Origin: a virus
Reading direction: 5' to 3' (one strand)
Virus record (IMG/VR): IMGVR_UViG_3300013100_000036
Span: 1 to 21,026 of that record
Length of the DNA stretch: 21,026 nucleotides
Under the pieces are notes generated by a model. The model saw only the letters and a list, made by a program, of their open reading frames with translations, made no database searches and was not told where the DNA came from. Position 1 is the stretch's first letter, and each line of letters starts with the position of its first letter. Shown here one piece after another: positions 1,431 through 13,899 of the stretch. The translations under genes were made by a program, and so were the position numbers.

Positions 1431-1753
1431 TTTTTCGGCAAAGGCATCGGAAAAAGGTAATTTTTGTAAGTTCAACGGTCAATCTGGCTGAGAGCCTTGA
1501 TTTTACTGGGCTGCAAAGGATCGGCATGAAGTAATTTTTGAGTAATGTAGAAGTAAGGTAATTACCTTTTAAGGAAGTAATATTTGTTTTTATGCATCCC
1601 TTACAAATCAACAGCTTACAGCCATATTACCTTTTTCATTACTCAAAATTACTTTCCGAAGTAAGCCAGCAAAGCCAATGAATACGGGGCTTTCGCCGGT
1701 GTCCCGATATTCGAATTACCACATTACTTTTTTCCGATGGCGCTCCTGAAAAA
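1431..1753. repeat. Nested inverted-repeat structure with GTAAT/ATTAC boxes
   Basis: The outer arms are 1431-1461 and the reverse complement of 1723-1753: TTTTTC-N6-G(G/C)CATCGGAAAAA(G/A)GTAAT, identical at about 25 of 31 positions. A second, inner pair is 1528-1547 (GAAGTAATTTTTGAGTAATG) and the reverse complement of 1637-1656. Near the centre is a perfect 14-nt palindrome, AAGGTAATTACCTT (1555-1568). GTAAT boxes on the plus strand lie in the left half (about 1457, 1531, 1542, 1558, 1577). ATTAC boxes lie mainly in the right half (1561, 1626, 1638, 1648, 1715, 1723). No protein is encoded. It could be a MITE-like insertion, an array of protein-binding sites (integrase arms, terminase or a replication protein), or both. 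I see no obvious target-site duplication. Confidence 0.75.
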
Positions 1754-2262: not shown

Positions 2263-2796
2263 TTGGAAGAGTCTGAACAAAACTATAGAGCGACAGCAAC
2301 TAACAGTCGAAAATACCCCAAACGCCTTACAGACTACATCGCCACTTTAGTCGGCAGAGGTAGACTTCTAGAGGCCAAGCATTTCTTCTTAGAGCTGTGC
2401 AAAACAAGCCCTAACCATGAAAAGACAATACGATTAGGCTACACCATTGCAATTGCCACCTTTGACAACGACTGGGTGTACAAATACGACAAACTCCTGA
2501 CTGACTCAGCGCAAGAAAGCAGTGAGGTGCTATGGTTTCGATTGCGCTATTATCAATCGCAAAACAACGTTGCAGCTTGCGAAAGTACAAGCTGCGAGCT
2601 ACTTGAAAAACGTCTAAGCAACGACCAACTTACCACCATTCTCGAAGTATGCATCGAACGACATAGCTACATAATAGCCGAACCTTTATCAAGATATTTA
2701 CAAAAGTACCGTATAACACTTTCCCCACAATTCAATACCTGGCTCAAGCAAATAGTTATCACTCAACTAATAGACTCCCTCCAGAGGTACAAATGA
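2263..2796 (+). CDS. Unknown helical-repeat-like protein, first gene of HEPN cargo operon
   Basis: The start is TTG at 2263, chosen because AAGGGAG lies about 8 nt upstream and no ATG is nearby. The 177-residue product appears wholly alpha-helical. It has repeated segments of the kind Y-x-x-x-L-x-x-x-G-R-x-x-E-A (residues about 23-45, LTDYIATLVGRGRLLEAKHF) and further helix pairs, reminiscent of TPR or other solenoid repeats. No named family is recognised. Its last codons overlap the next start (ATGA at 2793-2796), so the two genes are translationally coupled and probably act together. Base composition is much more AT-rich than the phage structural genes, a sign of separate acquisition. By position it is cargo between cos and Q. 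A partner or regulator role for the HEPN protein is inference. Confidence 0.75.
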   Translation: MEESEQNYRATATNSRKYPKRLTDYIATLVGRGRLLEAKHFFLELCKTSPNHEKTIRLGYTIAIATFDNDWVYKYDKLLTDSAQESSEVLWFRLRYYQSQNNVAACESTSCELLEKRLSNDQLTTILEVCIERHSYIIAEPLSRYLQKYRITLSPQFNTWLKQIVITQLIDSLQRYK

Positions 2797-3779
2797 CTAG
2801 CTTTCTAGTAGTGAAAATCTTGGATGATAGAAGCATCACGCTTCCATCCACCCTTAACTACGGAAGCGTTGAACCTCGATCTTATTCGGCTGATACCGAA
2901 CTCGAATCTCAGGCATTTGAAAAATCCGCATCCGAAGGCGGGCTGGATTTTAACAAACATAAAATATGCGCAAGAATTGCCACAATTGTGGACTGCGAAA
3001 CGCACATTGAAGCCATCCATATCGCCGACATCAAATTCTTGGAGGTCCTTGACTTTAAATCGACTGAATTTGCTGTATCAGCGATAAAGACATCCCGAAT
3101 TGGCCTAATCAAAGATTTATCTACAGGCGAAATCACACCCATTGAAAGATACGGATTTCAGCAGTCTCTTTCTTTCGTTGTACGGCACGGCGCGATACAG
3201 TGCATTGATGCGACCAGTTATGTTCTATCACTAAAAAATGAGCTTAGTGACCGATACAAGCGCTCTCTTCACTGGGGAAGAAACAGCAAAAACGAGACGA
3301 ATCCTCAACTGAAGATCATTTTTTTATGGTTTGCCTTAGAGGCGTTATTGAAAGCAGACGAAACCGATAACTGCGTCGAGAGCTATATTCGATTGTTTTT
3401 AGGCTTCCCAAATGGATTACAGCTTTTGATACTATCACCAACGGTGAGAGCCAAATTAGAAGACCATGAGAGATATAAATACTGGCAAAAACAACTTACA
3501 GAAACAGTTAAAGAAATTCGCGACTTCCGCAACAACTCCGTACACTCAGGATTTCGAAGCGTAGATTTCACAAAAGAAAAGCTAGAACTATTCAGCTCAA
3601 TAATGATTTATGCTGTAGGCAGGTGCCAAGCGGGAGTAATGCAAGGCCTGCTCAGCAACTTACAAACACTATCCGAATTCAAAGAATACGCAGTTCCTAT
3701 ATTTGAAAACAATACAAACCTAATAAATGACACTCACAACAATATTATTTACACTCTAGATCACCCTATGTATTACTAA
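2793..3779 (+). CDS. HEPN-domain protein (Apea-like), putative RNase effector
   Basis: This 328-residue protein is encoded in a 4-bp overlap with the gene before it. The N-terminal half (about 1-150) is beta-rich and unassigned. The C-terminal half (about 150-280) is helical and resembles the Apea-like HEPN domain: RYKRSLHW, then FLWFALEALLKAD, then EIRDFRNNSVHSGFR. The last contains the HEPN nuclease motif R-x4-6-H as R246-NNSV-H251. HEPN proteins with this motif are usually metal-independent RNases in toxin-antitoxin and anti-phage abortive systems. The motif and coupling are seen in the sequence; RNase activity and a defence role are inferred. The gene is AT-rich and sits in the slot where phiCTX carries a toxin gene. 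It converges on Q, with a GC-rich hairpin between them. I cannot match it to a named defence system. Confidence 0.75.
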   Translation: MTSFLVVKILDDRSITLPSTLNYGSVEPRSYSADTELESQAFEKSASEGGLDFNKHKICARIATIVDCETHIEAIHIADIKFLEVLDFKSTEFAVSAIKTSRIGLIKDLSTGEITPIERYGFQQSLSFVVRHGAIQCIDATSYVLSLKNELSDRYKRSLHWGRNSKNETNPQLKIIFLWFALEALLKADETDNCVESYIRLFLGFPNGLQLLILSPTVRAKLEDHERYKYWQKQLTETVKEIRDFRNNSVHSGFRSVDFTKEKLELFSSIMIYAVGRCQAGVMQGLLSNLQTLSEFKEYAVPIFENNTNLINDTHNNIIYTLDHPMYY

Positions 3780-3826: not shown

Positions 3827-3847
3827 CGGAGGGGTTACCCCCCTCCG
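3827..3847. terminator. Hairpin between convergent HEPN gene and Q
   Basis: A perfect 8-bp GC-rich stem (CGGAGGGG at 3827-3834, CCCCTCCG at 3840-3847) with a 5-nt loop overlaps the stop codon of Q (3835-3837 on the minus strand). There is no T-run on either side. It could act as a bidirectional terminator or protect 3' ends of both transcripts. Confidence 0.5.
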
Positions 3848-4854
3848 ACTTCATAGAGTCTGAATCGCATAATTTCTTCACCCAGCCAGTCGTTCAACTG
3901 AGTCATTCGCGTCTGTATCGGCTCCAGTTCATTGGCCGCATAAATCTGCGCCGCCTCCCGAATTGACCCAAACCCACCAGCGTTCTGCGGAACAATCCCC
4001 ATCAACTGCGGCGGAATGCGCAGGCTTGCCAACACGTCATCCCGCGTCTGATTCTTGATCGAGTTGAATTCATCCTTCGCTGCCACCTCGCTCACTGGGA
4101 TCAGCTGGATCCCGTCCTTCTTGCCGGTCGGCGAGTACACGAACAAATTCCGAAAATTCCCAGGCCCTTTCGACTCCTTCAACGCTTTCCGCAACGCATC
4201 AATATCAGCCTCAGTCTGCGCCGCATCCGTCATGTACAGAATGAACCCCGCATGACTGCCATTCTCGTAATATTTACGCCGAAACAACGTCGCCGACTCG
4301 TTCAACAACGCGGACTGCAAAGCGCTGATCCACTCCGGCAACCCATAAATCTCCTGGTGCAGATCGGCCTCTCGCAGATGAAAAATGCTGTCAGGCTCAA
4401 ACGCGTGTTCATCCTTCCACCCCCGCACCTGGTAGAACTGCCCATCCGGCCCAGCACGCATGTACTTGGCCAAGGGGGTTTCAAGCTTGCGAACCCCACC
4501 CAGCCGCGAACGCCGCCCCTCAAAATAGCCATTACCCAAGCACAAAAAGTCCAAGGCAAACTGCTCAAACGAAGCCCGCGAAAGCAGCGGATGCGGGATA
4601 AACGTCTTGCTCAGCAGGTTCCGCTTGAACATCAATCCCGAATGCAGATGCACGCTCGCCCCCACCGACCGGGCCAGCCCATCAAGCGACAGCGGAGGCT
4701 CATACCACCGCCCGTTGAACCAGCACTCCAGATAGTCGAAAACCTCCCGACCACCTAGCACCGGCGTCGGCTCGCCGAAGGAAAACACCTGCGTTCCCGC
4801 GCCGGTGGTGGACATGGTCGCGGGCAAACTCTGGTTGGCCATTTGTTCGGTCAT
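3835..4854 (-). CDS. Q: Portal protein (P2 gpQ-like)
   Basis: The 339-residue product matches P2 gpQ in length (344) and in typical segments such as VFDYLECWFNGRWYEPPLS near the start and LMGIVPQNAGGFGSIREAA near the end. The latter belongs to the phage portal (PBSX/P2 type) family. A dodecamer of this protein forms the portal vertex through which DNA enters and leaves the head, and it anchors terminase during packaging. The start ATG (4852-4854) overlaps the stop of P in an ATGA arrangement, so the leftward P-Q operon is coupled. Expression is probably from the late promoter between P and O. Q is the last gene before the cargo and cos region. Confidence 0.95.
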   Translation of the reverse strand: MTEQMANQSLPATMSTTGAGTQVFSFGEPTPVLGGREVFDYLECWFNGRWYEPPLSLDGLARSVGASVHLHSGLMFKRNLLSKTFIPHPLLSRASFEQFALDFLCLGNGYFEGRRSRLGGVRKLETPLAKYMRAGPDGQFYQVRGWKDEHAFEPDSIFHLREADLHQEIYGLPEWISALQSALLNESATLFRRKYYENGSHAGFILYMTDAAQTEADIDALRKALKESKGPGNFRNLFVYSPTGKKDGIQLIPVSEVAAKDEFNSIKNQTRDDVLASLRIPPQLMGIVPQNAGGFGSIREAAQIYAANELEPIQTRMTQLNDWLGEEIMRFRLYEVGGG

Positions 4855-6611
4855 CAGTAAATCTCCATGCGCCCGGTGTTGGCAGTGGTCTGCCCCTCAA
4901 GCGGTTCGTGGTGCAATGCGTGAAAGAGTGCCCAGGCCAGGTCGGCGTGGCCGGTGTTGTCGTTGCGGCCGGCGGTGTAGGTGTACTGGCGTCCGCCGGC
5001 GGTGACGGTTTTGCGGATCGCCATCAGCGACTGGGCCATGTCGGTCCAGCCGGCGTCGAATTCGAGCCGGCCCTTGTGGATCACGTCGTAGGCCTTAAGT
5101 ACCAGGCGTGTTTTGACTTCGGGCGAGTAGCTGAAGGTGGTGACCGCCGGGAAGAACTGGCGCACCAGCTGGGCCACGCCGCTGCCCAGACCGGTCACGT
5201 CGACGCCGATGTAGGTCACCCAGTAGCGGTCGCAGACGCTCTTGATGAACGCAGCCTGCGCGGCGAAGTCCATGCCCCGGAATTGGTGGCGTTCGAGGAT
5301 GCGAAACTTGCCACCCGGTACCAGGGGCGGCGCGACCACGACCATGCCGGAGCAGTCGCCCGTCTCGGCCGGGTCGTAGCCTATCCAGACCTGACGGTCG
5401 CCGAACGGGCGCATGGCGAACGGTTTGTAGTCCTCGGCCCACTCGACCCAGCTGTCCACCATGCACGACTGCAACAGGGTCAGCGGGAAGATGCTCGCGC
5501 CGTCATCGACAAACTCGCACATCAGCAGGTTGGCGAACGCTTCGGGGCTGTACTCCCGGCGCAGCTCCTCGATGTCGAACAAGTCACACCCACCCCGCTC
5601 CGCGTCCAGAATCGTGACGATCTGCCGCCACAATCGATCCTCACAGAACCGGCCCTGCTGGAGCGCGCCGTGGGACACGTCCACCTTCGTATGCTGCGCG
5701 GCGGGCTTGCCCTTGTTGAAGCGCTCGCCCGTCCAGAAGGTGTACGCCTCGTGGGCCATGCTCGACGGCGTGGAAAAGTAAGTCTTGCGCCACTTCTTGT
5801 GCATCGCCATGCCCGAGGCGACCTTGTTCAGCTCCTCAAACTTGAACGTCCAGAAGAACTCGTCGAAGTAGAAATTGCCGTGATAGCCCTGGGCGGTACG
5901 CGCGTTGGTACCGAGGAAAAACAGCTCGGCGCCGTTGGGCAAAACAATGGGATCGCCAGTCAGTTCGACGCCGATAATCTCGCGGCAGAACGCCTGAATG
6001 TAGCCCCGGAACAGGTAGGCCTGGTTCTTAGAAGCCGACAGGAAAATCTGGTTGCGCCCGGTGTCCAGCGCATCGATAAACGCCTCGCGGGCGAAGTAGT
6101 AAGTCGCACCGATCTGCCGGCTCTTGAGAATGACGCGGGTGCGCTGATTGCCAGCCCGGTACCAGTCTTTCTGATAGTCGAAACAGCCATCGATGAAGGC
6201 CTCGCGCAGCAGCTCGATTTGGTCTTCATCAATCTCGTTTTTGACCGCCTTTTTCTTCAGCTCGGCGTTGCGCTTGGCCAGGTTCGGGTTGAGGTCGGTT
6301 TCGGTACCGCCACCCTGAAAGCGCTGGATGCGCGCCTGCCGCTCCAACTGCCGGTGCAGCAAATCAATCTCTTTGAAATCGCCGCCGCTTTTCCCTTCCT
6401 TGAGGATGAGTTGCACCAAGCGCGCTTCCAGCGCCCCGCCGATGCGTTCGACGTTGTCGGCCCGGTCCCACTCATCGCGAGCCTTCCAGCTGTGTAGCGT
6501 TTTTTCCTTTTCGCCCGTAGCCTCGGCAATCTCGCAGATGCGCCAGCCCATCCAGTAGAGAAACTTGGATTGGCGGCGGGGATCGATGGGCAGCAGTTCG
6601 GTCGTAGTCAT
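4854..6611 (-). CDS. P: Terminase large subunit, ATPase/nuclease (P2 gpP-like)
   Basis: The product is 585 residues against 590 in P2. An N-terminal helix-turn-helix-like stretch (about 23-48, ICEIAEATGEKEKTLHSW) precedes a terminase ATPase. The ATPase has a deviant Walker A, KSRQIGAT (about 163-170), and a Walker B, FYFDEFFW (about 247-254). The C-terminal RNase H-like nuclease shows acidic residues in WIGYDPAETGD (about 409), YIGVDVTG (about 470) and GHADLAWAL (about 556). It would cut cos and pump DNA into the capsid together with gpM, docking on gpQ. The ATG at 6611 has no usable RBS. It lies about where the late promoter predicts transcription to start, so the mRNA may be leaderless. Confidence 0.96.
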   Translation of the reverse strand: MTTTELLPIDPRRQSKFLYWMGWRICEIAEATGEKEKTLHSWKARDEWDRADNVERIGGALEARLVQLILKEGKSGGDFKEIDLLHRQLERQARIQRFQGGGTETDLNPNLAKRNAELKKKAVKNEIDEDQIELLREAFIDGCFDYQKDWYRAGNQRTRVILKSRQIGATYYFAREAFIDALDTGRNQIFLSASKNQAYLFRGYIQAFCREIIGVELTGDPIVLPNGAELFFLGTNARTAQGYHGNFYFDEFFWTFKFEELNKVASGMAMHKKWRKTYFSTPSSMAHEAYTFWTGERFNKGKPAAQHTKVDVSHGALQQGRFCEDRLWRQIVTILDAERGGCDLFDIEELRREYSPEAFANLLMCEFVDDGASIFPLTLLQSCMVDSWVEWAEDYKPFAMRPFGDRQVWIGYDPAETGDCSGMVVVAPPLVPGGKFRILERHQFRGMDFAAQAAFIKSVCDRYWVTYIGVDVTGLGSGVAQLVRQFFPAVTTFSYSPEVKTRLVLKAYDVIHKGRLEFDAGWTDMAQSLMAIRKTVTAGGRQYTYTAGRNDNTGHADLAWALFHALHHEPLEGQTTANTGRMEIY

Positions 6612-12590: not shown

Positions 12591-13045
12591 CCAACCGGTT
12601 AGAGGCGCTGGAGGATTGGGCGGCGGGATTGCTCGGGCAGCTTGAGCCAGCATCGAGAAACAAGCTGGCCCGTAGTCTCGGCCAGGCATTACGACGCAGC
12701 CAGCAACAACGAATCATTGCCCAACAGAATCCGGACGGCAGCAAGTACGCGCCGCGCAAGCAACGCAACCTGCGTGGAAAACAGGGCCGATTGAAACGTA
12801 AGTTGAAGATGTTCCATAAACTGCGCACAGCCAGTTTCTTCAAGGTGCACGGTGATGGAAGCGCTGTAATCGCTGGTTTTTCAGGGCGAGTGGCCCGAAT
12901 TGCAAGGGTGCACCAGTATGGGTTGATGGATCGTGCCGAACGTGGTGCACCCGAGGTGCAATACATGAAACGGGAGCTGCTGGGTCTGACTGAGACTGAT
13001 CTTGAGTTGATTCGCGACTTGCTTCTGAAACACTTAATCCTTTAA
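12587..13045 (+). CDS. S: Tail completion/virion morphogenesis protein (P2 gpS-like)
   Basis: The 152-residue product (P2 150) has the basic gpS/virion-morphogenesis pattern: LARSLGQALRRSQQQRIIAQ, NPDGSKYAPRK, RVARIARVHQYG and a C-terminal LRDLLLKHL-type helix (LELIRDLLLKHLIL). The ATG at 12587 overlaps the stop of R. Normally V follows. Here the operon is interrupted 11 bp later by an oppositely oriented cargo gene, so S is the end of this transcription unit. Confidence 0.93.
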   Translation: MTNRLEALEDWAAGLLGQLEPASRNKLARSLGQALRRSQQQRIIAQQNPDGSKYAPRKQRNLRGKQGRLKRKLKMFHKLRTASFFKVHGDGSAVIAGFSGRVARIARVHQYGLMDRAERGAPEVQYMKRELLGLTETDLELIRDLLLKHLIL

Positions 13046-13056
13046 CAGTTAAGCAA

Positions 13057-13899
13057 TTATTTCCAGCGACCTACTGCCGTAATTTGAAAAGCGCCGGCAC
13101 CTGGTGCACAAGCTTTAAAGTCTTCATCCGCAAATTTAATTCGAAACCCGCTTCTGGTCGTCATGATAGCCGCATACTTCGCTGGGTAGAATTCCGGAGA
13201 CAGTACTTGTAAAGGAAGAGGCAGATTCTTCAAAAACTCAAAATACTTGAGGACCTCATCCTTCTTGCCATCAACTAAAAAATCAATACCTTCGACAATC
13301 TCTGTTTCCGTAAGAAAAAATAGATAATTCAACACTAAATAATTGGCGACTCGCCCTCCCTTGAGTGGCACGGGATAACGATGCACGGGTTGATCCCTTC
13401 TTTCGTTAACGATCAGTTTTTCACCATCCATGAACGCACAATTGAGGATCATCTGCTCAGCAGGCTCGAGAATCGAACATCCGGCCCATTCTTGCTTTAG
13501 CTCAAACTTTGCAAGCTCGGGGAACCGTTCACTGAGAAAAATATTTCTTTCTGAGTCGTATAAAAAATCCCCTAGACTAATCGCGCCTCTTAACGGGAGT
13601 TTATTTTTGAAACCCAGTTCGAGTAAGAAAGAAACAGATGCCACAAAATTGTTGACATTATAGACATCATCAACCGGACACGAAACTAAGACTATGGAGT
13701 CAAACAAAAACTGAGAAAAATCAAAATTCTTTCTTCCTTCATCATCGCCTAGTGCTCCATAGAAAGTTTTTACTTTTGCCTCATCTATAAAAGACGAGTA
13801 CTTCTCATGCAGGCTATCTATATTCCCAGCTTCCAACCGCGCGGAGAACCCCAGTACATCCAGAAACGCAATGAGCCGATTTTCAAGTTTAATGACCAC
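13057..13899 (-). CDS. Class III nucleotidyl-cyclase-like protein, cargo gene
   Basis: The start is GTG 13899 with a very strong Shine-Dalgarno (AGGAGGT at 13903-13909). The 280-residue protein opens with RLIAFLDVLGFSARLE (Asp14). It then has FLFDSIVLV (Asp67) and PLRGAISLGDF (Arg104-Gly105). These match, in order, the first metal-binding Asp and DxxGF strand, the second metal-binding Asp on the beta2-beta3 hairpin, and the RxGxxxG strand of class III adenylyl/guanylyl cyclase folds. Residues after about 200 are unassigned. There is no membrane segment or signal. It is clearly AT-rich against GC-rich neighbours and faces against the operon, so it is a moron. Cyclases of this fold include the cCMP/cUMP synthases of Pycsar defence, but no effector gene is adjacent. 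Activity is not shown; it could be a degenerate or non-cyclase homologue. Confidence 0.7.
   Translation of the reverse strand: MVIKLENRLIAFLDVLGFSARLEAGNIDSLHEKYSSFIDEAKVKTFYGALGDDEGRKNFDFSQFLFDSIVLVSCPVDDVYNVNNFVASVSFLLELGFKNKLPLRGAISLGDFLYDSERNIFLSERFPELAKFELKQEWAGCSILEPAEQMILNCAFMDGEKLIVNERRDQPVHRYPVPLKGGRVANYLVLNYLFFLTETEIVEGIDFLVDGKKDEVLKYFEFLKNLPLPLQVLSPEFYPAKYAAIMTTRSGFRIKFADEDFKACAPGAGAFQITAVGRWK

Follow-up and report, generated by a model that had tools for sequence, protein, structure and literature searches.

A repeat element of about 330–340 bp is very probably an iteron-type replication origin of P2-like phages that do not have GpA, bound by the phages' own primase-helicase. It lies in the window, a 21,026-bp IMG/VR virus record of a P2-like phage, to which coordinates refer unless another record is named. 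We infer both the binding and the origin activity from sequence patterns and from analogy with known replicons. It is a phage element whose place between att and cos is conserved among P2-like members of the Peduoviridae that infect Pseudomonas, Xanthomonas and Stenotrophomonas. A first-pass annotation had considered four explanations: integrase arm sites, sites for terminase, iterons like those of an origin, and a non-autonomous insertion. Co-evolution with the primase-helicase gives good support to the iterons, and the other options fell away. The parts of the element and the landmarks around it are:

1421–1760, no strand assigned: whole element, the proposed iteron-type replication origin, with 12 GTAAT boxes and ~68–94% identity in relatives
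1457–1470, + strand: left outer box pair GTAAT/GTAAG, 9 bp from start to start
1493–1511, + strand: left box-free gap, a possible weak hairpin with modest statistics
1531–1581, + strand: left inner box cluster (1531, 1542, 1553, 1558/1561 and 1577), including a palindrome at 1555–1568
1582–1625, no strand assigned: AT-rich centre, candidate melting region (G+C 0.35), with a conserved CCTTAYAAATCA-like core at 1598–1610 in the alignment
1626–1665, − strand: right inner box cluster from the box scan (1626, 1638 and 1648 inverted; GTAAG at 1661 on the + strand)
1671–1693, + strand: right box-free gap, possible hairpin AAAGCC...GGCTTT, secondary and of modest statistics
1715–1727, − strand: right outer box pair from the box scan (1715 and 1723)
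1087–1160, + strand: 5′ end of host dusA, the attachment site (att), outside the element, from the sequence and the dusA-linked integrase in relative L084
1933–1961, + strand: P2-like cos region, separable from the element and usually ~180 bp to its right
3835–4854, − strand: portal
4854–6611, − strand: terminase

The symmetry of the element is much as first described. The outer arms (1431–1461 and 1723–1753), said to match at about 25 positions, match at exactly 25 of 31, and the next-best 31-mer pair at the same separation in the window matches at 19; a 38-nt version of these arms is 79% complementary. Within them lie the inner 20-bp inverted pair (1536–1555 and 1629–1648, 16 of 20 matching) and, near the centre, the perfect 14-nt palindrome AAGGTAATTACCTT, both also noted earlier. 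The claim of at least ten GTAAT/ATTAC boxes, forward on the left and mostly inverted on the right, is exceeded: 1421–1727 contains 12 exact boxes, mostly on the + strand in the left half and on the − strand in the right, compared to a mean of 0.76 and a maximum of 5 in 2000 dinucleotide shuffles of the element. GTAAG variants form further box-like sites at 1466, 1553 and 1661, and box starts in the left inner cluster are mostly 11 bp apart. The element has a G+C content of 0.38 versus 0.58 for the window, and hairpins in the box-free gaps are only modestly in excess over shuffles. As had been proposed, no gene accounts for the element; the open reading frames that touch it (1094–1447 on the − strand, 1152–1424 and 1737–1988 on the + strand) have no Pfam match, and no conserved gene starts there. 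A structured RNA was also considered and rejected, as an Rfam search gave nothing near threshold at the element.

The placement between att and cos was borne out by the dusA 5′ end on one side and, on the other, by the sequence at ~1933–1961, which we take to be a P2-type cos. In several relatives, 19 bp of the left gap (1493–1511) are found again in inverted form (~2701–2725 in L084), there between the dusA (att) core and the integrase gene. Separately, AAGTGGTACG-like repeats found by eye lie on both sides of the dusA core (1213–1232 in the window; ~2580–2690 and 2820–2845 in L084). Two cargo open reading frames occupy 2263–3779 between cos and portal. In a PADLOC comparison the second of them (2793–3779) weakly resembles ApeA (E 9e-4), which suggests a hotspot for defence or accessory genes.

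The array stays to the left of cos, with box order and spacing unchanged, in about half of 80 viral contigs whose portal is related; many of the remainder end before the array region. Neutral drift of the boxes had been named beforehand as the outcome that would count against a functional site; in nine close sequences, box positions are 95% conserved versus 78% for other positions of the element, so such drift is not what is seen. The nearest relative with both element and primase (L013/G005) has a 94% identical element, and the same element is present in the isolated P. aeruginosa phages Dobby and Sirocco (Citexvirus). The array usually starts 450–520 bp before cos, with about 2 kb between element and cos in L030 and L039, and the distance from dusA/att to the element is ~1.9 kb larger in L012. 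These variable distances on both sides indicate a stand-alone element.

Alignment of relatives that first seemed to be without the element revealed that GTTAG replaces GTAAT at nearly every box, in register. An unbiased 5-mer count in 330-bp windows then identified arrays of GTAAT, GTTAG, GTAAC or GTAAG in most of 80 host-genome prophages (Pseudomonas, Xanthomonas, Stutzerimonas and Azotobacter); box sequences change together while the spacing is kept, and mixed arrays occur in L180, L188 and L190. If the protein that reads the boxes had changed, a dozen sites would be expected to change together in this way.

A candidate for that protein is encoded by the same phages. GpA (PF05840) was found in 0 of 46 P2-like relatives and is also absent from six distant phages with the primase described here; a P2-type GpA rolling-circle origin was rejected because of its absence from the 46 relatives. 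Instead, a Toprim primase-helicase of ~906 aa is present in 42 of the 46, the remaining four being shorter records, and the array-less L235 carries GpA. The protein belongs to phrog_1139 ('DNA primase'). Its ~900 aa carry a zinc-ribbon-like motif at the N-terminus and a predicted winged-helix-like domain at the C-terminus, together with a Toprim primase domain and a P-loop region. In the model of the C-terminus (mean pLDDT 87), the structural elements follow a winged-helix-like order. Its weak structural matches include SaPIbov1 Rep 8tch (VIA Z 5.2) and the Cch helicase 5dgk, and the scores, among them a Foldseek E of 0.54, are in the range of chance; a VIA match list for this model contained no recognisable P4 origin-binding domain entry, which is uninformative either way. 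An AlphaFold model that covers the helicase together with the C-terminus was set aside at a mean pLDDT of 59.5, and PDB sequence searches with the primase gave nothing useful.

Several variations on this protein are worth recording. In many GTTAG-type phages, the primase contains an extra 26 aa with the pattern CxxC...CxxC before the C-terminal domain (e.g. L150 3407–6205, the G021 primase), and a partial second copy of the primase (residues ~530–780) lies directly downstream of the first in G010 (13022–13747), G014 (5126–5824) and G041 (29086–29820). The family phrog_20645, a 156-aa phage protein family whose function is not known, matches residues 785–906 of the Dobby primase (L093 25683–28403) and, judging from this match, is perhaps a stand-alone box-binding protein.

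To compare the histories of boxes and proteins, we used 78 cases in which element and primase could be paired within the same prophage, 74 of them also with portal, TerL and gpM. All 74 have an array, one each, with 4–13 boxes. On FastTree trees evaluated against 30 shuffles, the primase tree shows 3 changes of the GTTAG state (shuffles give a mean of 13.9 and never fewer than 11), and box type changes 11 times on the portal tree, 12 on that of TerL and 13 on that of gpM, hardly better than shuffles. For two conserved genes near the primase, there are 12 changes with u135 (two genes upstream), as in shuffled data, and 8 with u79 (directly upstream). In the same 31 prophages, box type changes 6 times on the integrase tree versus once on the primase tree, and independent contrasts or pairs gave p=0.016 on the portal tree and p=0.031 on the TerL tree. 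We conclude from these trees that the element and the primase travel together despite the intervening genes, because box type follows the primase tree and not those of portal, TerL, gpM, u135 or integrase.

The correspondence has exceptions. G024/L062 combines mostly GTTAG boxes with a primase of the GTAAT clade, and L210, L350 and L353 combine a zinc-insert primase with GTAAT boxes; thus, the code between box and primase is not strict, and the latter three contradict the zinc-knuckle insert as the specificity determinant. The C-terminal domain as sole tracker of box type was likewise rejected: trees of the N-terminal, middle and C-terminal parts give equal counts and so do not single out a box-reading domain. 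Arrays occur without a primase at five loci (L163, L168, L197, L167 and L172), which are apparently remnant prophages or contig ends. L163, L168, L197 and L160 are remnants of P2-like prophages that have apparently lost their early region, and in the first three the array persists.

Complete phages with primases only 32–54% identical extend the pattern. A genome scan for short-repeat arrays found that the strongest such array in each is a single intergenic one of similar geometry: GGTAAC beside cos in Smp131, TGACA in PfPro, TGTGA in Escherichia phage ESSI2 and, in phi3, GGAAC immediately after the primase gene. Where primase identity is 32–51%, the boxes (TGTGA, TGACA, GGAAC) are unrelated to those of the element. 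The GGTAA array of Halomonas phage 4908 is weaker, and Bacillus phage ZY1 has no significant array in a record with a gene at both extremes, from which the region may be missing. Outer pairs 8–9 bp apart, inner boxes at ~11 bp and low G+C recur in these arrays, most clearly in ESSI2 and Smp131; the 9-bp outer pair is also found in Smp131, ESSI2, phi3 and Halomonas 4908, and the arrays are AT-rich relative to their own genomes. Gene order is different in phi3 and PfPro, where the array, instead of occupying the att–cos place next to the portal, adjoins the primase or integrase region, which argues that it belongs to the replication module. As a positive control, the same scan recovers the annotated crr iterons of P4 that adjoin attP, and in P2, which has GpA, it finds no such array near cos. 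Cumulative GC skew in Dobby was uninformative and does not single out the element.

The element could instead be a region that replication requires in cis but at which it does not start, bound by the primase-helicase in the manner of P4 crr or of a copy-control or incompatibility array, with the true start elsewhere. P4 does have two arrays, ori and crr, and its crr is beside attP, as the element is here. However, the complete genomes of Dobby, ESSI2, phi3 and PfPro each have only one strong array of this kind, and the array has its own AT-rich core, which makes this reading unlikely. We give still less credence to a centromere-like partition site, or to an array of regulatory operators for some phage DNA-binding protein besides the primase. 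Arrays of short sites are also known in partition and operator systems, but here u135, a nearby gene for an early regulator, shows no such tracking of box type, and no conserved gene begins at the element.

Two of the functions first proposed are now very improbable. Integrase arm-type sites of the phage attachment region would agree with the nearness of att and with the inverted box arrays, which recall attP arms. However, dusA integrases that are close relatives of each other may be accompanied by GTAAT or by GTTAG arrays, box type departs from the integrase tree, the array is common to phages with unrelated integrases, and the dusA spacing grows in L012; in addition, GTGGTACG-like repeats flanking the dusA core are, by eye, better candidates for arm sites than the boxes. 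The usual ~180 bp between element and cos would fit an accessory site for terminase at cos, but box type is nearly random on the TerL and gpM trees, the element can be about 2 kb from cos, and the phi3 and PfPro arrays adjoin the primase or integrase region instead. A non-autonomous transposable element (MITE), which the terminal inverted repeats recall and for which multiple copies in Pseudomonas genomes had been the proposed sign, can be dismissed almost entirely: 13 of 299 Pseudomonas genomes have a copy and never more than one, place and geometry are conserved in divergent phages, and the end arms are not conserved in class B.

In keeping with an iteron-type origin, the element has short repeats in cis and two iteron sets that flank an AT-rich region, and in relatives (74 of 74 pairs) the putative initiator is on the same replicon; the window is a 21-kb fragment that does not reach its own primase gene. 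Drawing on P4 and PICI biology, we propose that the primase-helicase would bind the short boxes as two inverted half-arrays on either side of the AT-rich core, each with outer pairs 8–9 bp and inner boxes ~11 bp apart. Its assembly on both halves would melt the core around 1598–1610, and the melted core would allow helicase loading and priming, leading to theta-type initiation as in the P4 and PICI/SaPI satellites. The box sequence would be a recognition word that diverges in step with the initiator. A literature search found no published origin for these phages, and the records of Dobby, Sirocco, Smp131, ESSI2, phi3 and PfPro contain no origin annotation.

These results have broader implications. 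A widespread lineage of P2-like, helper-type phages probably uses a satellite-like (P4/PICI-style) iteron origin of fixed geometry, in which the word has been rewritten repeatedly along with the primase-helicase (GTAAT, GTTAG, GTAAC, TGTGA, TGACA, GGAAC), providing a natural series of matched initiator–origin pairs. This series makes the specificity code of a primase-helicase initiator directly testable. Among Peduoviridae, satellite-like replication appears to be common, a point of relevance to the source of satellite replicons.

P2 is the textbook rolling-circle phage, and the relatives without GpA apparently replicate by a mode other than that of P2. They belong to a related phage family (Peduoviridae) and share its late-gene order, but in P2 rolling-circle replication starts from a nick site inside gene A. 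The same element is found in Dobby and Sirocco. P4, with its ori, crr and alpha protein (NC_001609), resembles the phages here in having short iterons in both orientations (8 bp in P4, TGTTCACC), a crr that adjoins attP and a phage-coded primase-helicase with Toprim. In contrast, P4 is a satellite, its ori and crr are kilobases apart, its box sequence differs, and the profile similarity of alpha to the primase is limited to the Toprim region (hhalign probability 38%, E 3e-4). The origins of PICIs and SaPIs, which use Rep or Pri-Rep, also differ in that the present case is a full P2-like phage rather than a satellite and the proposed origin is away from the primase gene, beside att and cos. The structural matches of the primase C-terminus to SaPIbov1 Rep and Cch are weak, with scores in the range of chance. 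PICI origins have been described as having an AT-rich region with a set of iterons on each side (PMC6092414), which is likewise the arrangement of this element.
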